64,000 bases of DNA from Pseudomonadota bacterium (GTDB lineage: Bacteria; Desulfobacterota; Desulfobacteria; Desulfobacterales; RPRI01), in assembly GCA_018817425.1 (NCBI GenBank), contig JAHITX010000096.1, positions 62,001-126,000 of the forward strand. Direction: 5' to 3'. Positions within the stretch are counted from its first letter, which is position 1. Each line of letters opens with the position of its first letter. Positions 52,247-64,000 of this stretch are shown one piece after another. Both the position numbers and the translations under genes were made by a program. The notes under the pieces were generated by a model that ran no database searches, had not been told where the DNA came from, and saw nothing but the letters and a program-made list of their open reading frames with translations.

Positions 52247-53851
52247 TTGGAAAATTCCGAGATTGACATACTATCCGAAGATAGGTTGGACTATCGTATG
52301 GAAAGCATTATCCGTCTCTGGGAAGTTTTGCGAAATATTGGAAAATTAGATAAAAAACTTCAGATTATCACCGATACAGTTAATGACATTTTTAAAGCGA
52401 AATTCACCATATTATGGATTGTTAAAGAAGGGGATCGGTGCAATTCCGGTTGTCCTTTTTCACAAAACGGTTTTGGTTACAAAACCTGTAGAGGTGACAT
52501 TGAATGTCTGCATCTGATAGCCGGTTCCGGTTTCGATAGCAACATAGATGCAGATCTTAACAGGATACCGTTAAGCCATTTTAAAACCGACAAGATCAAT
52601 ATCGGCATCAGTGAAAAATCAGCAATAAATAAATTCATTAAAGATTTGTTTATCCATAATGAAAATGGGATTAGCACCCAGGATATTAAATCAGTTGTCA
52701 GGTTAAAGCTTGTTTCGGATTACGACAAAGCCATAGGTGTACTTACCGTGTTCAGCCAACAGGTGATCAGCTCTCCTGATATTGTTCATATCGAATGTTT
52801 CTCCAATTTGGCTGCTCAGGTTATAAAGAATTCTCAACTGGAAGATTCTCTGATAAAATATCGTGAACATCTTGAAGGTCTTATAAAAGTACGTACTGAT
52901 GATCTGATGGAAACCAACCGGAAATTACAAAAGATTGTCAAGGAAAAAGCCCATATTGAAAAATCTCTTATAGAAAGCGAAAAAAGGTTTCGCAGCGTTC
53001 TCGATAATTCATATGATGTTATTTACTTTATGAATTTTAAAACATCAAAATTCGAATATCTAAGCCCGTCTTCTTTGAAAATAACCGGTTATACTCCCGA
53101 AGAAATCATATATTTGCAGGAAAGCGGAAATTTTGACTTCCTTCATCCTGAAGAGGAAGATAATGTCCATGAATTCTTTAAACAACTGAACATTCGTCCG
53201 GATGAGGATGATATTAACAGAACCATAACCTTCAGAATGAAACATAAAACAAATGGCCGCCGCTGGGTCAGCACCACGCGTTCAGTTATTTTTGATGAAA
53301 ATGGAGAACCGGCAGCTATTGTTGGTAATCTTAGAGATATTACTGATATTAAAAATGCTGAAGAACAAGAAAAAAAAATGAAAGATAATCTTGAAAACAT
53401 GGTTCAGGAGCGCACAGTTGAACTTGAGAAGAACAACACAGCCTTAGAAGTACTTTTAAAAAAGCGGGAAATGGATAAAACTAAGCTTGAAGAAAAACTG
53501 ATTTTTAATATTAAGCAATTAATTGTTCCATATCTTGAAAGAATAAATAATACTACATTAGATAATTATCAGGAGAATTTGATACATATTATTGAAGCGA
53601 ACTTAAATGACATTCTTACTCCGCTTATTCCGTTTGTTTCTCCTTCTCAGATTGACCTGACACCTTCGGAAATTCAGGTTGCAAGCCTTATAAAGCTGGG
53701 AAAAACCACCAAGGAGATAGCAAACACTTTACACCTGGCTATGAGCACAATCCATTTCCACAGAGATAATATAAGAAATAAAATCGGAATTAAAAACAAA
53801 AAGGTTAATCTTAGAAGCTATCTTCTGTCTTCGGAACAAAACATCTGGTGA
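52247..53851 (+). CDS. GAF-PAS sensor with C-terminal LuxR-type DNA-binding domain
   Basis: 534 residues. An N-terminal GAF-like domain carries a Cys cluster (Cys65, 69, 81, 87: [17 protein letters not shown]). A coiled coil (about 205-245), a PAS domain (about 245-365) with PAC, a second coiled coil and a LuxR helix-turn-helix ([42 protein letters not shown]) follow. No kinase H-box is present, so sensing and DNA binding are in one chain. The TTG at 52247 is the listed start and is uncertain; the ATG at 52298 would remove 17 residues. The palindrome at 52074 may be its own site. Confidence 0.85.
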
Positions 53852-53878: not shown

Positions 53879-55264
53879 CTATCTGTTGTCGACGATTCTT
53901 CTTTTCTGCTGACTGCCCCCTCTTCTTAAAATACCCGCTTCTACAAACTGAATTTCGGGATTTCCCATAAGACCTTTTTCCATATTTTTCTTAACAGACG
54001 GTACGGAATTTATGCAGCCGATGATCCTGGCTGTTAAATCATCCTGATTTTTCAGTACCTCAACACAGCATTTAATATGATCCAGGCCGTCTTTTCTGGT
54101 GATAAATATTCTGTAATCTATCAGCTCAGAAATGGCGTATAATCTGTCATCAAAAAGAGATGTATATATTTTATCGTCTTCTCCGATATTGACAATCAGT
54201 GCTTTTCTTCTTGGGATTTCACCGATTCTAAGCAAAGTACAAGCACCACATTCACAGGTACTTCGGATAAGCCGGGCAAGATCTCCTGTACGATAGCGAA
54301 TCAAAGGCATGCCAATACGATTTAAAGTAGTAAAAACCAGCTCTCCTTCCTCTTCTTCGTTTTTTATCGGCTCACCTGTTTTAAAATCTACTATTTCAAA
54401 ATAAAGATCACATTCATTAAAATGGTAACCCTTGTGTGCTGTGCATTCTATACCGATAGCAAAGCCAGGTTCCGTCATTCCGTAATGATGGTATACTTTT
54501 GCATTCCAAGCTTTTTCTAAAGCCTTCCGCATGGCAGGGGAAAGATATTCGGAGGTGATAAAAACGAATTTTACGCCAATATCGGCCAGATCAAAAACAG
54601 ACTCGGATTCTTTTGTCATGCGCCATATGCGAAAGGCTGATCCCATGATCATATCCGGTTTAAATGCTTTTATGCTTTCAATCTGAGATGGGGTAGGGCT
54701 GTCGCACTGACCGATTAACGGAATTCCGTTAAGATTTTTTACTCCTTTTGCAATCATTCCGGCCATGCTAAGCGGAGGAGAATTATCGGGCAAAAATATC
54801 TGAACTTTGCATCCGTCAAAACAATATTGATCGTTTCCGTCCGAAACAACAGTGTGCATTATTGCTGCCATGGATTCTATGATTGTATCTGCATCCTGCT
54901 GTGTGAAAAATATTTTTTTGGGTTTTCCGGTAGTACCTGTTGTAAAATGACTGTATATCCTGTCAATTTTTCCCAATGAAACACAAAGGAGCTTATAAGG
55001 GCTGTTTATTAAATCATCGGGTTCGGTAAAAGGAAGATGTCTGATACTTTCAAGAGAATCAATTTTGGTGATTTTATCTTTAAGAGATTTATAAAATACA
55101 CTGTTATCGGCAGCATAGCAAAGTGTCTTTATAAGCCTGTCAAGCTGATACTGCTCAATATCCTTACGGGTAATGCAGTCTGGGTTTTGACCGAATTGTT
55201 TTCGTGAGCAGTTTTTATTTAAAGACTCTTTAATTTTGTTATGAATCCATTTTTCCAAAATCAT
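53879..55264 (-). CDS. AMP-forming CoA ligase (PaaK-like)
   Basis: 461 residues of the adenylate-forming family. The phosphate loop is TTGTTGKPKKIFF, then YHHYGMTEPGFAIG and RYRTGDLARLI. A Cys segment (CECGACTLLRIGEI) and a C-terminal lid with KRRIVD are present. Its length and features fit phenylacetate-CoA ligase relatives and, from memory, the DVU1553-type CoA ligases. The acid it activates is unknown. It is the last gene of the minus-strand cluster, separated from the hydratase gene by a hairpin repeat element. The long gap between GAGGG and the ATG makes the start somewhat uncertain. Confidence 0.85.
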   Translation of the reverse strand: MILEKWIHNKIKESLNKNCSRKQFGQNPDCITRKDIEQYQLDRLIKTLCYAADNSVFYKSLKDKITKIDSLESIRHLPFTEPDDLINSPYKLLCVSLGKIDRIYSHFTTGTTGKPKKIFFTQQDADTIIESMAAIMHTVVSDGNDQYCFDGCKVQIFLPDNSPPLSMAGMIAKGVKNLNGIPLIGQCDSPTPSQIESIKAFKPDMIMGSAFRIWRMTKESESVFDLADIGVKFVFITSEYLSPAMRKALEKAWNAKVYHHYGMTEPGFAIGIECTAHKGYHFNECDLYFEIVDFKTGEPIKNEEEEGELVFTTLNRIGMPLIRYRTGDLARLIRSTCECGACTLLRIGEIPRRKALIVNIGEDDKIYTSLFDDRLYAISELIDYRIFITRKDGLDHIKCCVEVLKNQDDLTARIIGCINSVPSVKKNMEKGLMGNPEIQFVEAGILRRGGSQQKRRIVDNR

Positions 55265-55286
55265 ATTGAAATTCTATTTCCCTCAA

Positions 55287-55400
55287 TTCCCCCTTAAGAA
55301 AGGGGGATAAAGGGGGTTGTTTTTTTATATATAAGCTGAAACCGAAAAGTTCTATCAAGAAAGCTCTAACAACCCCCTGACCCCCTTTGCTAAGGGGGAA
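55287..55400. repeat. 114-bp palindromic repeat (C5/G5-rich ends)
   Basis: TTCCCCCTTAAGAAAGGGGG at 55287 is matched at the other end by the inverse of TTCCCCCTTAGCAAAGGGGG, and both arms continue with GGGGGTTGTT. The whole element folds into a long hairpin. Repeats with this CCCCCTTA...AAAGGGGG signature are widespread in bacterial genomes. It splits the cluster between the hydratase and CoA ligase genes. No target duplication was seen. Confidence 0.8.
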
Positions 55401-55433
55401 GTAACGTTCGTCAGTATTTATTAAGCCGGGCAA

Positions 55434-56597
55434 TCATGTTGGAGCTAAATACGGTTCCCCTGTTCTTTTATCTATCGGCCCAAGCTTGTCATTTCGTGAT
55501 GGCAGTATAATAGTCGATTTTGCAGGCATAACATCGTCACCTCTTTGATTAATAGCTTTTGATACTATATCAACACAGCATTCTTTCTTATCATCTATAT
55601 ATTTATCTGTAACATAGCCGGAAATTCTGATGGCATCCGAAAGATAAACCAGCCTCTTAAATCTTGCATGGCTGCTTTTTATCCAGCCATTATCACCCAT
55701 CCAGTTTGTCAGAAAATGGATAAGCCAGCAATGCCTTTGAACAGCCGTATCATAAGGATAAGGCAAACCGCATTCATTTGCTGCATCAATATTATAATGC
55801 ACACTAAAAACAGGTTCCATAGCAGAAGTTTTGCTGTCTCTAAATGCCCAGGCCGGATGTTTGCGGTAAGTTCTAAGTGCCGATCCATGAGCCTGTAATG
55901 GAACCGGCGAAGCGCCAATGCAAAAGGATATAATATCAGTTATCCCCAAAGGGCCTTTTATGATTTCGGGTAATACTTTGCCTTTGTCAACATCTTCATA
56001 ATAAAGCGGCTTTGTACCCCGGTATTTTTCTGCAAGCACATGATCTTCAATTTCTTCCAGTTCCTGTAATGTCCATGGATGAGGCAATTTAAATTTTTTG
56101 CCGGAAACATCTTGTTCATCCGGGCTTCGTTCAACCCTGAATGCAGAAGAGTTGACGCTGGCAACCAAATGGTCAGTCTGATTTATAAATTTTACTTCCT
56201 GCTGTTCATAAACGGATTTGCCGTATAATTTGCTGTTGACCTTTTTGCATCCTGTCAAAAAACATTGAGGACTAATCCGGTCATTTGCCAGTACCGGTTT
56301 GTAGTATTGCCAGTCTACACTTGTTTGTAAAGCATGCACTCCCGGCAAACCCTGCAATACCCAAGTGGGAAGAACACTGTTAAGCCATGATGGCGGAGCC
56401 GGAAGTGTTTTATAAGAAGTTGAATCGGCATATTTCTTATCTCTCCACAATTTATTGGGATCGCCTATGCCGTCGGCAAACTTTTTAATCGCATCTTCTG
56501 TGGCGACACTGTTAAATTGATAGTTAACACGAAGTTGTTTTCCTACCCGGCTTCTCATTTCTTCAAACGCTGTATACGTAATCTTACTCTTTTCCAT
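55434..56597 (-). CDS. Two-domain hot-dog (FAS1/MaoC-like) acyl dehydratase
   Basis: 387 residues from the ATG at 56597, with AAGGA 11 nt upstream and 14 bp after the radical SAM stop. The N-terminal half is a MaoC-like dehydratase N-domain (FADGIGDPNKLWRD, AYPSW-type region PAPPSWLNSVLPTW). The C-terminal half has VHYNIDAANECGLPYPYDTAVQRHCWLIHFLTNWMGDNGWIK, positions about 270-311, a motif of enoyl-CoA hydratase-like hot-dog proteins. It probably adds or removes water at an acyl-CoA. The substrate is unknown, but the CoA ligase next door implies a CoA thioester. A longer frame to 56687 overlaps the radical SAM gene. Confidence 0.82.
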   Translation of the reverse strand: MEKSKITYTAFEEMRSRVGKQLRVNYQFNSVATEDAIKKFADGIGDPNKLWRDKKYADSTSYKTLPAPPSWLNSVLPTWVLQGLPGVHALQTSVDWQYYKPVLANDRISPQCFLTGCKKVNSKLYGKSVYEQQEVKFINQTDHLVASVNSSAFRVERSPDEQDVSGKKFKLPHPWTLQELEEIEDHVLAEKYRGTKPLYYEDVDKGKVLPEIIKGPLGITDIISFCIGASPVPLQAHGSALRTYRKHPAWAFRDSKTSAMEPVFSVHYNIDAANECGLPYPYDTAVQRHCWLIHFLTNWMGDNGWIKSSHARFKRLVYLSDAIRISGYVTDKYIDDKKECCVDIVSKAINQRGDDVMPAKSTIILPSRNDKLGPIDKRTGEPYLAPT

Positions 56598-56611
56598 ACA
56601 CTCATTTATCC

Positions 56612-57997
56612 TTAATAATTGATTGGCCCGGGCTGTATTTTTCTGTGCAGACTGCCGCCTTGCGAGCCGGTTAAATAGTAACTGCAAAAAGGAATCAGCC
56701 GCTTATCTGTTGTTATAACGTGGATGCAGCAGCCCTTAAGTCTTTTAAGATCAATTGTCCAGGCATCCATAAAAGGCATCCCCGATATGGATAAATAGTG
56801 TGTTTGAATCCGTTCGTAAAAATTATTAAAAGGTCCGTTTGGGGTTTTGCATGCACATTGTTTTGTTGCAGGTTCTATAAATCTGGATTTTTCAGTGATA
56901 AAGCGCCGCACATGAGCAGTCGGACTTTCTTTCTTTTGGCTTTGAATACAGTTTTCAAAAAGAGTGGATTTATCGGGATGAAAACGGGTAGTCGCCTGCA
57001 GTTTGCCCTTATCATTTAAGATATAAAATCCTGAAAAGCCGCAATGCGAATCCATTTTCCTGCGTGGCTGGAAATCATGAGCCTTGATTTCACCAGAGGT
57101 TTGAATTTCAAGCAATCTTAATATTTCAGGAGTAGTAATTCTGCTTTCATTTGATGGGCAAAAATTATAGCGTCCGGAATAGGTAACAGGCTGGAAATGA
57201 ATTCCTTTGATAACCGGCATATAGCGTTTGGCAAAAAACAGGATCTCTCCCAATTGAGAGTCATTAACTTTCGGAATTACTGTGGGTACCAATTGCACAC
57301 CCATCTTGATTTCAGAGCAGTTTTCAACCGCGTTTATCTTTAGACCAAAAAGATCAACGCCCCTTAGTGTCCGGTAAACATCATCCGTTACACCATCAAA
57401 TTGAAGATAAATCAAATCAGTTCCGGCATCTTTTAAAGCCTTTAAATAAACTTTGTCTTTTGCTATCCTGATGCCGTTGGTATTAATCTGGACATGACCC
57501 AATCCGGCATTCTTTGCAACACTCACAATTTCAGGAAGATCATCTCTTACAGTCGGTTCTCCGCCGCTTAACTGAATGGGGCAAGTTCCGGCAGCAGCCA
57601 CAACTGCTTCACACATTTCTTTAAGCTGTTTAATTTCGGGAGTATTTGATGATGATTGCCTGTCTCCGGCAAAACATACGGGGCAGGAAAGGTTACACTT
57701 ATCTGTGACTTCCATTAAAACAGTACAGGTATCCGCCTGGTGTTCCGGGCATATCCCACAATCTTTCGGACATCCTGAAATGGTTTTCGTCTGTTTTTCC
57801 TGAAGCGGCTGTGAAAATTCTCCATAGCCCCATTGTTCAAATGTCGGATTGCCTCTCCAGATTACAGTTTTAAATTCGCCATGAACGGGACAGGTTTTTT
57901 TAAGAAAGATATCTTCACCTTCTGAAATCTTTACAGCCGGTATTACAGCAAGACAATGAGGGCAAATACTTGTTGTTTCGCCTATATTTTTAGGCAT
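56612..57997 (-). CDS. Radical SAM protein, TrsS/tetraether-synthase-like
   Basis: 461 residues. N-terminal Cys pairs (CPHC at 12-15, Cys36 in CPVHGEF; CPKDCGICPEH at 76-85) are followed by the radical SAM motif CNLSCPVC (101-108). The SAM-binding SGGEPTVRDDLPE is intact. C-terminal Cys-rich stretches (QCACKTPNG, LKGCCIHVITTDKRLIPFCSYY) could hold auxiliary clusters. The N-terminal layout is shared with tetraether lipid synthase (Tes) and with the DVU1554/TrsS-type proteins (recalled, not searched). No in-frame TGA is present, so it is the all-Cys form. It lies 9 bp after the methyltransferase gene. Confidence 0.85.
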   Translation of the reverse strand: MPKNIGETTSICPHCLAVIPAVKISEGEDIFLKKTCPVHGEFKTVIWRGNPTFEQWGYGEFSQPLQEKQTKTISGCPKDCGICPEHQADTCTVLMEVTDKCNLSCPVCFAGDRQSSSNTPEIKQLKEMCEAVVAAAGTCPIQLSGGEPTVRDDLPEIVSVAKNAGLGHVQINTNGIRIAKDKVYLKALKDAGTDLIYLQFDGVTDDVYRTLRGVDLFGLKINAVENCSEIKMGVQLVPTVIPKVNDSQLGEILFFAKRYMPVIKGIHFQPVTYSGRYNFCPSNESRITTPEILRLLEIQTSGEIKAHDFQPRRKMDSHCGFSGFYILNDKGKLQATTRFHPDKSTLFENCIQSQKKESPTAHVRRFITEKSRFIEPATKQCACKTPNGPFNNFYERIQTHYLSISGMPFMDAWTIDLKRLKGCCIHVITTDKRLIPFCSYYLTGSQGGSLHRKIQPGPINY

Positions 57998-58006
57998 TTT
58001 ACTATC

Positions 58007-58786
58007 CTACAATGGTTTACGGAAAGAAAATATAGCATATCCCGGTTTGCTTTCAGCAAAAAGTCTTTTCCATTCAATTTGCGGATCAGAACTATTATTT
58101 AAGGCGGAACAGCAAGATGCACCTTCACTTGAAAAATGCTTCCAAAAATCATCCAATGAACCATAACCTGAGATTAATTTAAATGCGATTTTTTTTAACT
58201 CAATGGAATGATCTTCAAACAGTTCATTTTCAAATCCCGCCTTGTAAAAAACTTCGATGTATCCGGCTTTTGTTAATGCCCCGGTAAAACAACAATTAAA
58301 AAGAACCTCATCTTTAAACTCGGAGCTTAAGGGATGATTTAAGATAACATCGGACATCGAGAATCTGCCGCCCGGTTTAAGAATCCGAAAAACCTCTTTT
58401 GCAACACGCATTTTATCAGTAAACAGAGAAAAAGCACATTCCGTAATAACCGCATCAAAAACCGAGTTGGAAAACGGCAATGATTCGGAATCAGCTAAAC
58501 AAAATTCTGCCTTATTAGAAAGCGACAACTTTTGAGCTTTTTTCCTGGCAAGAGATGAAGAATTAAGCGATAAATCTGTGCCTATAACCCGGCAATCAAA
58601 AAGATCGGATAAAAAGCAAGCGCTTGATCCTCTGCCGGATGCAATATCTAAAACCAGAGCTCCTTTTTGAATACCGGCTGATTCGGCGGTTTTCTTTGTG
58701 AGTTCCAATCCGCCTGGATGTAATATTTCATCCAGGACCTGATTAAACTCATTTGCTTCATAGGTTTTAACAATTGAAGTTTTCAT
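58007..58786 (-). CDS. Class I SAM-dependent methyltransferase (TrsM/DVU1556-like)
   Basis: 259 residues. Motif I VLDIASGRGSSACFLSD, then GTDLSLNSSSLARKKA, and DAVITECAFSLF/KEVFRILKPGGRFSMSDV. The N-terminus (GGLELTKKTAESAGI) is like ubiquinone/arsenite-type methyltransferases. A Cys pair near the C-terminus (GASCCSAL) is unusual and might bind a thiol or cluster. Acceptor is unknown. It is between the radical SAM gene and the small Cys-rich gene, in one operon. Confidence 0.85.
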   Translation of the reverse strand: MKTSIVKTYEANEFNQVLDEILHPGGLELTKKTAESAGIQKGALVLDIASGRGSSACFLSDLFDCRVIGTDLSLNSSSLARKKAQKLSLSNKAEFCLADSESLPFSNSVFDAVITECAFSLFTDKMRVAKEVFRILKPGGRFSMSDVILNHPLSSEFKDEVLFNCCFTGALTKAGYIEVFYKAGFENELFEDHSIELKKIAFKLISGYGSLDDFWKHFSSEGASCCSALNNSSDPQIEWKRLFAESKPGYAIFSFRKPL

Positions 58787-58805
58787 GTAAGCACTGCTTT
58801 AAATT

Positions 58806-58994
58806 TTATCCGAACTTTGCTTCCATTTCGGCTTCTGTTTTGTTCATTTCCATGGCTACTTCTTCAGTTATAAATTTTATCTTACATCCGGGGCATTCCA
58901 AACCGCTTTGGAAACCAAGCATTTCATAATATATTAAGGAAAGATCTTTTACTTCCATAGGTTTTTCACATTTACAGCATTGCCAGTTTGCCAT
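58806..58994 (-). CDS. Small Cys-rich redox-type protein (DVU1557-like)
   Basis: 62 residues: MANWQCCKCEKPMEV and GLECPGCKIKF give Cys6, 7, 9, 34 and 37, a zinc-ribbon or rubredoxin-like four-Cys arrangement. The C-terminal helix is acidic (EEVAMEMNKTEAEMEA). It fits the recalled DVU1557-type redox protein. It starts 2 bp after the stop of the 92-residue gene. Confidence 0.8.
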   Translation of the reverse strand: MANWQCCKCEKPMEVKDLSLIYYEMLGFQSGLECPGCKIKFITEEVAMEMNKTEAEMEAKFG

Positions 58995-58996
58995 TT

Positions 58997-59275
58997 TCAG
59001 CTCTCCTCATCAAAAGCGCTTTTTACACAATACGCAGTATGAATTTTATAGCTATCAGCCTCTTTTGAATACCTTACAAAATAAAGCGCATTGCCGATAG
59101 TCTTTTTACCTAAAAATTCATTATTGCCGGTATCACAAAGCTTTTCATTTGTTGTTTCAGAATCATAAATGACCATTTTAAGCTCATCATCCAAAATGCC
59201 TCTTGATTCCAGCAATTCCGAAACTTCAGAGCTTTTGTTTATATTGATTGTTTCATATCCTTCTGCATTGCTCAT
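58997..59275 (-). CDS. 92-residue protein of unknown family
   Basis: Soluble, mixed charge, two Cys (Cys47 in EKLCDTG and Cys83 in TAYCVKS). It has Ile/Asn/Lys-rich strands (GYETININKSSEV, GKKTIGNALYFVRYSKEADSYKIHTAYCVK). No recognised domain. AGGAGAG precedes the ATG. Its place in the operon between the large oxidoreductase and the Cys-rich protein suggests a small accessory or redox partner. Confidence 0.7.
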   Translation of the reverse strand: MSNAEGYETININKSSEVSELLESRGILDDELKMVIYDSETTNEKLCDTGNNEFLGKKTIGNALYFVRYSKEADSYKIHTAYCVKSAFDEES

Positions 59276-59306
59276 TAGTTACTCTCCTTTGTTTATCTGC
59301 ACGGCT

Positions 59307-61799
59307 TTATAAATAAATCTCAGTTAGCTTTGCCTTTAAATAGGATTGGTTATCTTTTTTGATATTTGCCTGATTGGGCGGCTTTGCCTTATTCTCATCC
59401 CAGTTGGGATTAAACAACAGATCAAGAACATGAATAGTAGGTTTGTGTTGAGCCAGCGCTTCCCTGCATGTAGCACAATAGGTAAGAATATCATGCTTTG
59501 CTTCTTCTACTCTTTTTTTAGTGATTTTTTGGGCCAGATCAAAAGATGCGAAAGCTATCATACCTCCCATACCGCAGCAAAGGCCGTTTTCACCATGGTG
59601 TTCCATCTCGATTATGCTGCTGCCAGTTTGAGATACCAGTTTGCGGATATTATCATGAGTATCTTTTTTAAATCTCCCGGCGCAAGGATCATGAATTGAA
59701 AATACGCCTGTTTTATGCCCATCTGATAAAATAATTCCCTCTTCAGCCAGAACATCATATAATGATCTTATTTTAATTCCTGAGGCATCATGCTGGCTTA
59801 TAGTTCTAAGACAGTTGGGACATGCCAGAATAAGCTCCTCTGCTCCCATCCGTTTAATTTCATCCGTAAGATCTTTAATCATATTCTGAAATGATGCATG
59901 ATCTCCTAATGAACGGGTTGGGTTTCCGCAGCATTTTAAAATAATGCCCGTATCTTTATCGTTTGATAACAGCCAGTCATAAGCTGAAATTACAGATTGC
60001 GGCGAATATGCCGACAGATGGCAGCCCGGCATGAAAACCCTGCTGCTTTTTCTTTTATCAGGATTTGGAAGGGTTAACATGAACTCATCCGATCTTACCC
60101 AATCCTGATCTTTTATGACAAGCTTGTGCGTTGGAAGCGGGCCTTTGCTGCATTCAACCAGTTCCTGTCTGGCTTCGTTGCACATTTTCCCGATATTAAG
60201 TCCTTCGGGACACACCTTTTCGCAAAGATCACAAATGTTACAGCAATAAGGGATCGCCGGTCTTTTAATAAAAGCGCCATCTTTGTATTTATCAACAAGG
60301 TCTTTCGGATTGTCACAAAAACGATTGAGAAATTCACAATCCGTCATACAGCTTTTGCATTCACAGACAAGACATCTTTGGGCCTCTTTAATCGCAGTTT
60401 GCTCATCAAACCCAAGTTCCACTTCATCAAATCCCAATCGCTTGTCAATAGCTGTTTCCGGCATTTTGGATCTTGGAATTGGTGTTGCCTCTTTTTTAAA
60501 AGTATCCTTTAAAACTTTATATGTCTTTTGTCTTCCTTCAAAAAGATCCTGATCGCTTAAATATCTGTCGATGGAAACCGCTGCTTTTTTACCGGCGGCA
60601 ACAGCTTTAATTACAGTAGATGCGCCTGAAACAACATCACCTCCTGCAAAAACTCCTGCCGTATTTGTCTGCATTGTAATCTCATCAACTGCCAGAGTTC
60701 CCTGCTTGCTGAGTTCAGGTATTATCGGCAGTTTTGATTTATCTACACTTTGACCAATTGCTATTATCACATTATCAGTATCTAAAACAAACTCTGATCC
60801 TTTAACCGGTATGGGACGGCGTCTGCCGCTATCATCTACTTCTCCCGGTTTCATTTCAAGACACTCAACGCCAATACATTTTCCGTTATTATCAATTATT
60901 TTAACAGGAGCAACATGAAAACGGATAATAACGCCTTCAAGCTCTGCTTCTTTGATTTCAAGCGGATCAGCAGGCATTTCTTCGCGGGATCGCCTGTAAA
61001 TAATGCTTACATTATCTGCTCCAAGCCTTTTGGCTGCTCTGGCGCTGTCAATAGCAGCATTGCCGCCTCCTATAATAATTACCCGTTTTCCGGGATTATT
61101 TTTTTCACCATTATTAACAGCTTCCAGAAAATCAAGTGCAGAAAACACACCGCTGCTGTTTTCACCGAACAATCCGGCATTTACAGAAGTTTGCGCTCCA
61201 ACTCCCATAAATACGGCATCATAATTTTCATTGCCAAAAAGATTCTCCAGACTGAGAACAGGCTGGTTGGTTTTTATCTCAACTCCCAGTTCTCTGATGT
61301 ATTCGATATCATTATCAAGGCAAGTGTCAGGCAATCTGTATGCCGGAATACCATAACGCATAAGCCCGCCTGTTTTCGGCATTGCTTCAAAAATTGTTAC
61401 AAAATAACCTTTTCTTATCAAATCGTATGCACAGGAAAGACCTGCCGGTCCTGAACCTATGATTGCAACCTTTTTATCTTTGGTGATTTTACAGGGACTG
61501 GCCTTTTCTCTTCCGTTTTGAACTTCATAGTCAGATACAAATCTTTTAAGGGCCCGAATTGCTACAGGTTGATCAATATTATTACGCTCGCATTGACTTT
61601 CACATGGGTATGTGCAAACTCTTCCGCATACCGCAGGAAAAGGCATGGTTTCTCTTATTACTTCCAGAGCTTTTTGAAACTCGCCTTGTGAGATTAAGGA
61701 TATATATTTTCTTATATCAATATGTGCCGGGCATGCATCCTGACAACGGGGATAAGCATCTCCCTTACAGTTTTCAATTATTTTATCGATCTCTTTCAT
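59307..61799 (-). CDS. GltD-like pyridine-nucleotide oxidoreductase fused to Fe-S and HdrB-like CCG domains
   Basis: 830 residues. In order: an N-terminal Cys-rich domain of the GltD/NfnB type (Cys11, 19, 23, 58, 62, 66, 70), FAD domain (VAIIGSGPAGLSCAY near 112), NAD(P) domain (RVIIIGGGNAAIDSARAAK near 240), and a second FAD strand TAGVFAGGDVV. A 4Fe-4S ferredoxin pair follows (CLVCECKSCMTDCEF; CCNICDLCEKVCPEG), then two CCG modules (KCCGNP with LACPNC; GLCCGMGG with CATC) as in HdrB/HdrD. It should move electrons between NAD(P)H, Fe-S carriers and a thiol/disulfide-type centre, or to the activase. The start overlaps the activase stop by 4 nt. Confidence 0.88.
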   Translation of the reverse strand: MKEIDKIIENCKGDAYPRCQDACPAHIDIRKYISLISQGEFQKALEVIRETMPFPAVCGRVCTYPCESQCERNNIDQPVAIRALKRFVSDYEVQNGREKASPCKITKDKKVAIIGSGPAGLSCAYDLIRKGYFVTIFEAMPKTGGLMRYGIPAYRLPDTCLDNDIEYIRELGVEIKTNQPVLSLENLFGNENYDAVFMGVGAQTSVNAGLFGENSSGVFSALDFLEAVNNGEKNNPGKRVIIIGGGNAAIDSARAAKRLGADNVSIIYRRSREEMPADPLEIKEAELEGVIIRFHVAPVKIIDNNGKCIGVECLEMKPGEVDDSGRRRPIPVKGSEFVLDTDNVIIAIGQSVDKSKLPIIPELSKQGTLAVDEITMQTNTAGVFAGGDVVSGASTVIKAVAAGKKAAVSIDRYLSDQDLFEGRQKTYKVLKDTFKKEATPIPRSKMPETAIDKRLGFDEVELGFDEQTAIKEAQRCLVCECKSCMTDCEFLNRFCDNPKDLVDKYKDGAFIKRPAIPYCCNICDLCEKVCPEGLNIGKMCNEARQELVECSKGPLPTHKLVIKDQDWVRSDEFMLTLPNPDKRKSSRVFMPGCHLSAYSPQSVISAYDWLLSNDKDTGIILKCCGNPTRSLGDHASFQNMIKDLTDEIKRMGAEELILACPNCLRTISQHDASGIKIRSLYDVLAEEGIILSDGHKTGVFSIHDPCAGRFKKDTHDNIRKLVSQTGSSIIEMEHHGENGLCCGMGGMIAFASFDLAQKITKKRVEEAKHDILTYCATCREALAQHKPTIHVLDLLFNPNWDENKAKPPNQANIKKDNQSYLKAKLTEIYL

Positions 61800-62596
61800 G
61801 CCACTTCTTCCTGTTTCCGGTTTTTCCCGACATCTACATCAGCTAACAATGCCGCACCCAAAGCTCCTATAATTTGCGGAACTTCGGGCAATACGACTTC
61901 TTTATCAAGCAATTCCTGAATAAATTTAACAACCCCGCTGTTTTTAGCCACACCCCCTGTAAAAACAATCTTGTCATTATAGCCTACCGATCTTCCCATT
62001 ATAATAACCCGCCGTGAAACCGCTTTGTGTAATCCTGCCACCATATCTTCCCGATTAGTTCTGTCTGCTCTTAAAGATATAATTTCAGATTCAGCAAAGA
62101 TAGTGCATGTGCTTGAGATATTGGACGGACTTACACTCTTTAGTGAGTCAGGCCCCATCTGGTCAATTGTGAGATTTAAAACGGAAGCCATAACTTCTAA
62201 AAATCTTCCGGTTCCGGCAGCACATTTATCATTCATAACAAAACTTTTTACTGTTCCGTTTTCTCTCATACCAATAACTTTGCTGTCCTGCCCTCCAATG
62301 TCAATGATAGTCCGGGCTTCGGGAATTAAAAAGCTGGCTCCTTTGGCATGGCAAATAATTTCACTGATGCTTTTATCAGCGAATTTGACACTGTCTCTTC
62401 CGTAACCGGTCGATACAAAACGATCTACATCCTTAAATGTGTACCCGGCTTTTTTAAGTGCTTTTTCCGTTACCTCTTTCGAAGATTCTGTTACATAATC
62501 TCCTGTGGGCATAACTTCATAAGCCACAAACTCACCATCTTTTAATATGGCTGTTTTAGCTGTAGCAGCACCAACATCAACACCTGCTATTAACAT
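61796..62596 (-). CDS. Acyl-CoA dehydratase/reductase activase (HgdC/BcrA-BadF-like ATPase)
   Basis: 266-residue ASKHA ATPase. Phosphate loop VDVGAATAKTAIL, TGYGRDSV, IDIGGQDSKVIGM, NDKCAAGTGRFLEVMA and SSTCTIFAESEIISL. Cys125 and Cys164 should bind the [4Fe-4S] cluster shared by the homodimer. It uses ATP hydrolysis to drive an electron to an HgdB-type catalytic protein, the divergent gene at 63074 being the natural partner. AAAGGAG precedes the ATG. The length (about 260) fits HgdC-like activases rather than the larger BadF/BcrA. Confidence 0.93.
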   Translation of the reverse strand: MLIAGVDVGAATAKTAILKDGEFVAYEVMPTGDYVTESSKEVTEKALKKAGYTFKDVDRFVSTGYGRDSVKFADKSISEIICHAKGASFLIPEARTIIDIGGQDSKVIGMRENGTVKSFVMNDKCAAGTGRFLEVMASVLNLTIDQMGPDSLKSVSPSNISSTCTIFAESEIISLRADRTNREDMVAGLHKAVSRRVIIMGRSVGYNDKIVFTGGVAKNSGVVKFIQELLDKEVVLPEVPQIIGALGAALLADVDVGKNRKQEEVA

Positions 62597-63073
62597 GGGT
62601 TCTCCTTTTGTGCTGTTTTTATTTCAAACAAATCAGACGATTTATAATATAACGGAGGCTTCCTGAGAATCTGTATCGCATTGGTTGCATTTTCTCATAT
62701 ATTTTTATTAATACAAGGTGAGAAAACTATGGGTATAATATGGTGCCTGTCCCCATATATATCCGTCTTCAATTTTTTTTAATCGAAGTTTTAAAAAACC
62801 GAAATCTCCAATATTGATAATATATAATTAACAGCTTATATTTAATAAAATAAAATGTCGGGATCATCCCGACTTTTTAACCTCAATTTTCCAATCTTAC
62901 TTTTTCCGGCAGTTTATGTAAAAATCACACTGAAATTTTAGTCTTGGATACTCATTTTTAAAGAAGACGGAAAGCAATCGGCACCGTCTGAGAGTGTAGA
63001 TATTTAAATTTAATAATAAGCTCATCAGAGCGGATTTGCCGAAAGAACTACAACCAAACGAAGGAGAAACAAG
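62597..63073. other. 477-bp divergent intergenic region
   Basis: Lies between the activase (leftward) and HgdB-like (rightward) genes, so it holds both promoters. It contains a terminator-like hairpin at 62857. No ORF is supported. Confidence 0.45.
62857..62878 (+). terminator. Terminator-like hairpin inside the divergent promoter region
   Basis: GTCGGGA, loop TCA, TCCCGAC, then TTTTT on the plus strand. It is about 196 nt before the HgdB-like start and so points to an attenuated leader or a short non-coding transcript upstream. Confidence 0.75.
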
Positions 63074-64000
63074 ATGTTAGCTATGGAACGGCTGAAAAAT
63101 CATTTGTCGGACAGATCATCGACATTAGGGAAACTAAAAAAAGACGGTGTCAAAATTGTCGGATACACACCCGGCGGGTTCATGCCTGAAGAAATTGTCC
63201 ATGCGGCGGGTGCAATTCCGATTTGTTTGTTAAAAGGCGGCGATGCTGACTCCGTAATCGAAAGCTTAAAGTACAATCCAAGGTTTTTTTGCACTTTCTG
63301 CAAAACACAGATTTCGTATCTGATGGGAGGTGATCTGGTATATAATCTGCCTGATATTCTCGTTGTTCCACACACAGACTGCAATCACAAGATAATTGCC
63401 GATTCCTGGAATTACTACGGTAATGCGGATGTGTTCCGATACGGCGTTCCCCATAACAAAGGAGAATCTGCCCGAACCTATTTTAAAGGAGGGCTGGAAT
63501 TGCTGAAGAAAAAGCTTGAAGATCTTACCGGAAACAAAGTTACGGATGAAAAGCTTGATGATGAGATACAGATAGGAAACAAAATAAGAAGTCTTTTCAA
63601 AGAAATCAGCTTTGCGCGAAAAACAAACCCGGCTGCAATCAGCAGCAGGGATTTTACAATGCTTCAGCATGCATCCACATTTGCGGACAAGGATTTTATT
63701 GTTCAAACCTTAGAAGCAGTCCGCGATGAAATAAAAGAAAAGCCCACAGCCGACAAAAACCGGAAACGGGTTATGATGATAGCATCTTCTTTGGCGAACG
63801 GCGATAATCTTGTATTTGATATTATAGAAAATACCGATGCTGATATTGTTTATGAAGAGGTTACGGAAGGATACCGTCCATATCTGGATAATGTGGAAGT
63901 TAACGGAAATGACCCAATACAAAACTTATCCGATACATATTTTGATAAGCGTGTACCTGCTCCCTGGGATCGTCCCTGGGGAGACCGCATGGAACGGCTT
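63074..64000 (+). CDS. HgdB/BcrB-like 2-hydroxyacyl-CoA dehydratase-family subunit, C-terminus beyond window
   Basis: ATG at 63074 with AAGGAG 7 nt upstream; 309 codons are open to the right edge. The protein shows VGYTPGGFMPEEIVHAAGAIPICLLKGG, FFCTFCKTQISYLMGG, ILVVPHTDCNHKIIADSW and VFRYGVPHNKGESARTYFKGGLELL. The Cys in CTFCK and TDC are Fe-S ligand candidates. The family splits into 2-hydroxyacyl-CoA dehydratases, benzoyl-CoA reductase subunits and double-cubane reductases (DCCP). This fragment does not decide among them. The activase at 61796 would be its reductase. Confidence 0.9.
   Translation, partial: MLAMERLKNHLSDRSSTLGKLKKDGVKIVGYTPGGFMPEEIVHAAGAIPICLLKGGDADSVIESLKYNPRFFCTFCKTQISYLMGGDLVYNLPDILVVPHTDCNHKIIADSWNYYGNADVFRYGVPHNKGESARTYFKGGLELLKKKLEDLTGNKVTDEKLDDEIQIGNKIRSLFKEISFARKTNPAAISSRDFTMLQHASTFADKDFIVQTLEAVRDEIKEKPTADKNRKRVMMIASSLANGDNLVFDIIENTDADIVYEEVTEGYRPYLDNVEVNGNDPIQNLSDTYFDKRVPAPWDRPWGDRMERL

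Follow-up and report, generated by a model that had tools for sequence, protein, structure and literature searches.

Conserved linkage of type II TrsS genes with genes for a predicted ATP-driven HgdC/HgdBA-type radical enzyme in two phyla

We analyzed a 64,000-nucleotide stretch of a Desulfobacterales genome (GCA_018817425.1, contig JAHITX010000096.1; G000:C96:62001-126000; hereafter, the window). At its end, genes for TrsS, a radical SAM enzyme resembling the tetraether lipid synthase Tes, lie next to genes for an HgdC-type activase and an HgdB-like protein. Outside the genus as well, the analysis found activase and HgdB-like genes together with those for the radical SAM enzyme, the methyltransferase and the ligase, in several orders and two phyla, as the original prediction had anticipated. 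We propose, tentatively and with somewhat less than even confidence, that the genes of this locus form a conserved functional unit in which a type II TrsS module and an ATP-driven HgdC/HgdBA-type radical enzyme would both act on acids bound to coenzyme A (CoA). A literature search on DVU1551-1559, TrsS and the HgdBA pairing found no functional study, and no description of TrsS combined with an ATP-driven HgdBA enzyme was found in the literature searched. The combination looks real; its novelty is that a type II TrsS module is coupled, in a conserved way, to an HgdBA enzyme that is predicted to be ATP-driven and probably has one cluster, and whose mechanism and substrate we infer. The cassette itself, which had been taken for a candidate undescribed system, is in large part catalogued though uncharacterised: most of its eight minus-strand genes are members or near-members of the NCBI DVU_1551-1558/TrsS families, with models named for TrsS, TrsM/DVU_1556, DVU_1553, DVU_1557 and NF045663, and the resemblance to Desulfovibrio vulgaris DVU1553-DVU1558 was upheld by NCBIfam model matches.

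In our phylum sample, TrsS was present in 59 of 395 genomes and an HgdB orthologue in nine, five of which also have TrsS (hypergeometric P = 0.005 against 59/395 overall). TrsS neighborhoods fell into type I (41 loci) and type II (26 loci), counts that are taken from related loci and are not independent samples. Type I loci carry a Mop-type molybdenum aldehyde oxidoreductase in 34 and DVU_1555 in 38 of the 41, and their NF045663 protein is usually fused. In type II loci Mop is absent, and a 92-aa protein (p92) is usually separate. Type II TrsS proteins form a clade (support 100/100), to which the window TrsS belongs; Mop and DVU_1555 are absent from the window locus. HgdA and activase genes occur in six of the 26 type II loci (the window, G006, G350, G218, L131 and L138), with hgdB in view in five of them; the G218 contig starts there. 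The corrinoid activator RACo was found in six other type II loci (L142, L144, L148, L150, L151 and L152), of which five have a corrinoid protein; FrdAB-like or molybdopterin genes and TRAP transporters are present in some of the six. One of these two activators was present at 12 of 26 type II loci, and neither was found near any of the 41 type I loci.

The Hgd-linked loci span two phyla and show divergent, opposite-strand and collinear gene orders. The congener G006 has an arrangement identical to that of the window, with proteins 84-100% identical, and all genes of G350 lie on one strand except that for the HdrB-type protein. L131 and L138 are Chloroflexi metagenome-assembled genomes (MAGs). 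From the window set, L131 lacks the regulator, the GltD half of the oxidoreductase and a recognised counterpart of the 62-aa protein, and its activase, hgdA and hgdB genes lie on the strand opposite to the TrsS genes. Because nearly the full window set, including the MaoC-like gene, recurs in this MAG in another order, the check for accidental linkage named in the original prediction does not refute the linkage. The TrsS proteins encoded at the Hgd-linked loci do not form a single clade (approximately unbiased (AU) test, p = 5e-05); a single origin of the pairing is thus rejected for TrsS, and the pairing must have arisen, or been retained, repeatedly. In contrast, the linked HgdA proteins do cluster, with support of 85/87, or 99/99 without L138. 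For HgdB, a single origin was not rejected when the hgdB genes of a paralogous locus in the source genome (C23, described below) and of G218 C45 were counted in (p = 0.18); the latter is probably not TrsS-linked, because the hgdA that goes with it does not encode the His142 typical of the linked set and falls elsewhere in the tree. A pairing that was repeated or long kept is hard to square with chance. That the neighbors met fortuitously would be more plausible given that most type II loci lack HgdBA and that 10 HgdB-like loci and about 12 activases occur in the source genome; nevertheless, we regard it as extremely improbable, since the linkage has been kept in two phyla in different gene orders and the linked HgdA proteins form their own clade. 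The recurrence in L131, the HgdA clade and the TrsS tree all disfavor it.

Next, we considered the HgdBA pair. The hgdB gene (63074..64000, continuing beyond the window; plus strand; PF06050) is cut by the window end and encodes 380 aa in full. The gene of its second subunit had been missed. In the contig beyond the window an hgdA-like gene for 469 aa starts 45 bp after hgdB on the same strand (64262-65671 in extended coordinates = L009:11263-12672 = G000:C96:126262-127671), so that the two form a two-gene unit, and a lone HgdB acting as electron donor is ruled out. The closest matches in a fold search with HgdA were DCCP, BzdO and HadB (TM to target 0.67-0.82), and MbdO was also matched. HgdA residues C143, C171 and C407 are invariant in all rows and aligned with the cluster ligands of HadB, BzdO and MbdO; the structure model has a pLDDT of 80, with low confidence at residues 136-142 and 170-174, beside two of these cysteines. 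His142, directly before C143, is found in the linked HgdAs and in the C23 HgdA, and is Leu or Met in the unlinked ones.

The [8Fe-9S] cluster of BzdN is ligated by Cys36, 73, 100, 263, 293 and 327, and 2-hydroxyacyl-CoA dehydratases (HAD) keep a [4Fe-5S] remnant on the HgdB-type subunit (PMC11971306). In profile alignments, the window HgdB keeps two of these six BzdN ligands (C73 and C103), and six relatives outside the window genus keep none. The position of BzdN Cys327 is Arg329 in 9/9 HgdB rows and Arg in 4/4 rows of the linked set, and the first and second HadC-type ligand cysteines are found only in the window genus. The comparison of cluster ligands that the original prediction had called for, made here with DCCP, BzdN and HadC, thus showed that most or all of the ligands have been lost and that the third position is an invariant Arg. 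In addition, scores against the class I benzoyl-CoA reductase models BzdN and BcrC were 83.5 and 79.2 bits (cut-offs 454 and 421). Membership of HgdBA in the benzoyl-CoA reductases or DCCPs was ruled out by the cluster ligands and these scores: BzdNOPQ and DCCP share its superfamily and fold, but their double-cubane ligands are lost here, and there is one activase gene rather than the two of BzdPQ. The 2-hydroxyacyl-CoA dehydratases (HadIBC, HgdCAB) are closer, with one activase gene, three cysteines for a [4Fe-4S] cluster in the A subunit and the same fold; they differ in the B subunit, where our HgdB has Arg for the third ligand cysteine and, outside the genus, has lost the first two as well.

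Given that HgdA keeps its three cysteines while HgdB has lost its cluster ligands, the pair is, judging from these alignments, asymmetric and probably one-clustered, and appears to represent a further stage in the loss of clusters.

HAD reactions are redox-neutral, whereas benzoyl-CoA reductase stores electrons on its second cluster. A loss of the HgdB cluster would therefore fit a dehydratase better than a reductase. The 2-hydroxyglutaryl-CoA dehydratase of A. fermentans reportedly has just one [4Fe-4S] cluster, and this would make HgdBA less novel. We also considered the possibility that HgdBA catalyzes the net reduction of an aromatic or heteroaromatic CoA ester, in a Birch-type reaction as known from benzoyl-CoA reductase, and that the TrsS module prepares the ring substrate. 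The source genome contains a recent hgdBA paralogue at C23 (L011:4533-12079; 86% identical for HgdB and 80% for HgdA) with the same regulator type, which adjoins two 4-hydroxybenzoyl-CoA-reductase-like Mo subunits together with FAD and 2Fe-2S subunits; G428 likewise has HgdBA and activase genes near xanthine dehydrogenase-type genes, and the fold of HgdA matches BzdO and MbdO. However, the subunit corresponding to the electron-storing one of BzdNO has lost its cluster ligands here, the C23 Mo subunits scored only 597 and 580 bits against a cut-off of 995 for 4-hydroxybenzoyl-CoA reductase, and the window locus has no other aromatic-pathway genes. We therefore consider such a reductase unlikely, though a serious alternative.

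We then examined which partner is fed by which electron source. The activase gene (61796..62596, minus strand, 266 aa; TIGR00241 287 bits, cut-off 125.4) encodes intact GVDVG, GGQD, CAAGTGRF (C125) and CTIFAESE (C164) motifs. It had been supposed that the activase pair supplies electrons to the operon. However, HgdB turned out to be half of an HgdBA enzyme, for which an activase is the usual electron source. An activase gene lies immediately behind hgdBA, in the same orientation, in L138 and in two loci that have no TrsS (L048 and L052), and shares a strand with hgdBA in L131; for these reasons, the activase is best read as the partner of HgdBA. It may serve both the window and C23 pairs, since no activase is found near the latter. 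Delivery of its low-potential electrons to TrsS would suit the window, where the activase lies in the strand run of the TrsS genes and hgdBA is divergent. Yet the arrangements in L138, L048 and L052, the strand shared by activase, hgdA and hgdB opposite the TrsS genes in L131, and the lack of an activase in type I and most type II loci, where the common redox gene is GltD/HdrB, make this very unlikely. The GltD/HdrB-type NAD(P)H/Fe-S oxidoreductase (59307..61799, minus strand, 830 aa; NF045663 549.7 bits, cut-off 530; Pyr_redox_2, Fer4_20 and CCG domains), or its HdrB-type half, accompanies TrsS in both types and is present at most TrsS loci, whether or not these carry Hgd genes. It is the likelier electron source for TrsS for this reason. 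L131, with NuoEF-like genes upstream of the HdrB-type gene, and L135, with electron-transfer genes of Hdr-like type, agree with this.

The oxidoreductase and p92 (58997..59275, minus strand, 92 aa) are a split form of one fused protein, because p92 matches the C-terminus of the NF045663 protein (model positions 673-752 of 759). A p92 relative was found in 29/33 type II neighborhoods scanned (overlapping sets). Its structure model (pLDDT 89) gave weak RelE/HigB-like matches in a fold search (best E 0.02, TM ~0.4-0.5), which we did not rely on. The adjacent 62-aa Cys-rich protein (58806..58994, minus strand; PF24292 (DUF7479) 40 bits, cut-off 27) is related to DVU_1557 but lies below the cut-off of that family (NF045645 32.5 bits against 60).

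TrsS (56612..57997, minus strand, 461 aa, type II; NF045646 547.9 bits, cut-off 490) gave a profile match of 427 bits to Tes (7tol), and 14 of its 15 invariant cysteines are common to Tes, with C91 being extra. It lies below the Tes model NF045702 (351 bits, cut-off 450), and its gene context is that of acyl-CoA rather than archaeal lipid. TrsM, the ArsM-like methyltransferase (58007..58786, minus strand, 259 aa; NF045667 (DVU_1556) 162 bits, cut-off 155), scored 111 bits against the ArsM model NF008823 (cut-off 263). In alignments with authentic ArsM of relatives, its C117 and C166 match the cysteines of the SNC and GCxxGA motifs, which bind As(III) in ArsM; they are Cys in 62/65 and 61/65 sequences, respectively. 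The N-terminal Cys pair of ArsM is absent from TrsM and replaced by an EDH motif. Since the two As-binding cysteines are kept, a soft-atom substrate is conceivable for TrsM, and so is the sulfur- or selenium-type product of the original prediction. Selenocysteine is optional in the TrsS family NF045646, but no in-frame TGA codon was found inside any TrsS sequence fetched, so that a selenoprotein TrsS is ruled out.

Several other TrsS loci differ in content. Two Dehalococcoidia-type loci (L134 and L135) have two tandem TrsS genes, and two from Bathyarchaeota (L145 and L147) have TrsM-TrsS pairs with no CoA ligase in view. A 5.9-kb contig of a Coriobacteriales MAG from goat ileum (L137) carries TrsS, a MaoC-like gene and an acyl-carrier-protein-like gene. 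G006 has a full type I cassette directly after hgdA. In the source genome, G000:C25 (L020:8237-11697) is a shortened type I cassette with only ligase, TrsS and DVU_1555, with the dispersed repeat that also interrupts the window locus (see below) lying between the latter two. G000:C131 (L021:4007-12003) has two tandem Tes-like radical SAM genes, which adjoin a carrier-protein-like gene and genes for beta-ketoacyl synthases and reductases; this may be a cluster for lipid coupling.

Compared with the DVU_1551-DVU_1558 cassette, the window has TrsS, methyltransferase, CoA ligase, GltD/HdrB and small Cys-rich protein genes in the same order. It lacks Mop, MocA, XdhC and DVU_1555, its NF045663 protein is split and its TrsS belongs to a separate clade; in addition, it has genes for the activase, HgdBA and the MaoC-like protein. 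Another possibility is that the TrsS module is a cofactor or maturation system, with Mop, HgdBA or corrinoid proteins as clients rather than members of one pathway. The same TrsS core indeed accompanies unrelated metalloenzymes, namely Mop (34/41 type I loci), HgdBA and corrinoid protein with RACo, and TrsM keeps the soft-ligand cysteines of ArsM. However, the crystallised Mop of D. gigas, whose cofactor is not known to be unusual, is a close relative (1433 bits) of the Mop found next to TrsS. This counts against the idea, and the CoA ligase in nearly every TrsS locus favors an acyl substrate. A maturation role thus appears rather improbable, less probable than the aryl-CoA reductase.

The CoA ligase, a DVU_1553-family member of the PaaK/F390-synthetase superfamily (53879..55264, minus strand, 461 aa; NF045666 301.7 bits, cut-off 300; PF00501, PF14535), the MaoC-like double hot-dog protein (55434..56597, minus strand, 387 aa; PF13452 38.4 bits), a putative enoyl-CoA hydratase/dehydratase, and HgdBA all point to acyl-CoA esters. 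For the MaoC-like gene, the start codon is ATG 56597 rather than TTG 56687, the one given by the open reading frame tool. No relatives of its product were found in the PDB, and relatives adjoin TrsS in G006, L131, L133 and L137.

The gene content, family assignments, conserved linkage and cysteine pattern observed here would fit the following pathway, whose reactions, substrate and step order we infer. First, the DVU_1553-type ligase would make a CoA ester. Second, GltD/HdrB, p92 and the DVU_1557-like protein would pass electrons from NAD(P)H to TrsS. Third, judging from their families, TrsS would perform Tes-like radical chemistry on an unactivated substrate carbon, and TrsM would add a methyl group. 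Fourth, the activase dimer would hydrolyze ATP and deliver one electron to the only [4Fe-4S] cluster, that of HgdA, and HgdBA, with most or all ligands gone from its B subunit, would carry out one-electron radical chemistry like that of 2-hydroxyacyl-CoA dehydratases. Finally, in the window, G006 and L131, the MaoC-like protein may rehydrate the enoyl product. If this speculation is extended, HgdBA might be a new ATP-gated radical enzyme, the next in the cluster-loss series DCCP, BzdNO and HAD, with an Fe-S cluster in one subunit only; it and a Tes-like radical SAM enzyme might act one after the other on the same CoA-bound substrate, and type II TrsS modules might generally pair with ASKHA-type activators (HgdC or RACo); we offer this bolder idea as doubtful.

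A number of observations weigh against the proposed functional unit. Neither activator is seen at 14 of the 26 type II loci, partly because contigs are short, and no supported clade unites the linked HgdB proteins. G350 and L138 have no MaoC-like gene, and none is in view in G218. L131, G350 and G218 have only the HdrB-type half (359-380 aa), and NAD(P)H is therefore not the direct donor at every locus. The cysteine positions were derived from profile alignments and not from a structure of HgdB or HgdA itself, and the position of the C23 HgdBA beside 4-hydroxybenzoyl-CoA-reductase-like genes suits an aryl-CoA reductase as well.

As for the arrangement of the locus, all nine genes that had been described as a close array are open and in place, but the array is less uniform than supposed. 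Eight of them lie on the minus strand (53879-62596), and hgdB, cut by the window end, is divergent across a 477-bp gap. Seven of the eight are tightly packed (gaps of -4 to +31 bp), and the CoA ligase is set apart by 169 bp (55265..55433). This gap is filled by a dispersed repeat with inverted arms, which lies outside the system and has ~90 matching segments in the genome; G006 lacks it and has a gap of 9 bp there. The intergenic region between the divergent activase and hgdB genes (62597..63073), which is 96% identical in G006, contains a perfect palindrome, GTCGGGAT-C-ATCCCGAC (62857-62873). A PAS + LuxR-type regulator gene, assigned by domain match (52247..53851, plus strand), is convergent with the CoA ligase gene. 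Because its relatives adjoin hgdBA at C23 (77%/334 aa) and hgdBA/TrsS in L138 (48%/167 aa), it probably belongs to the system as its regulator; G006 also has a relative (96%).

The split between Mop-linked and activator-linked TrsS loci, together with a compact orthologous set in two phyla, makes the function of TrsS testable by deletion of single partners. In addition, if HgdBA is truly one-clustered, it would provide a natural test of the need for a second cluster in one-electron (dehydratase) versus two-electron (reductase) chemistry.

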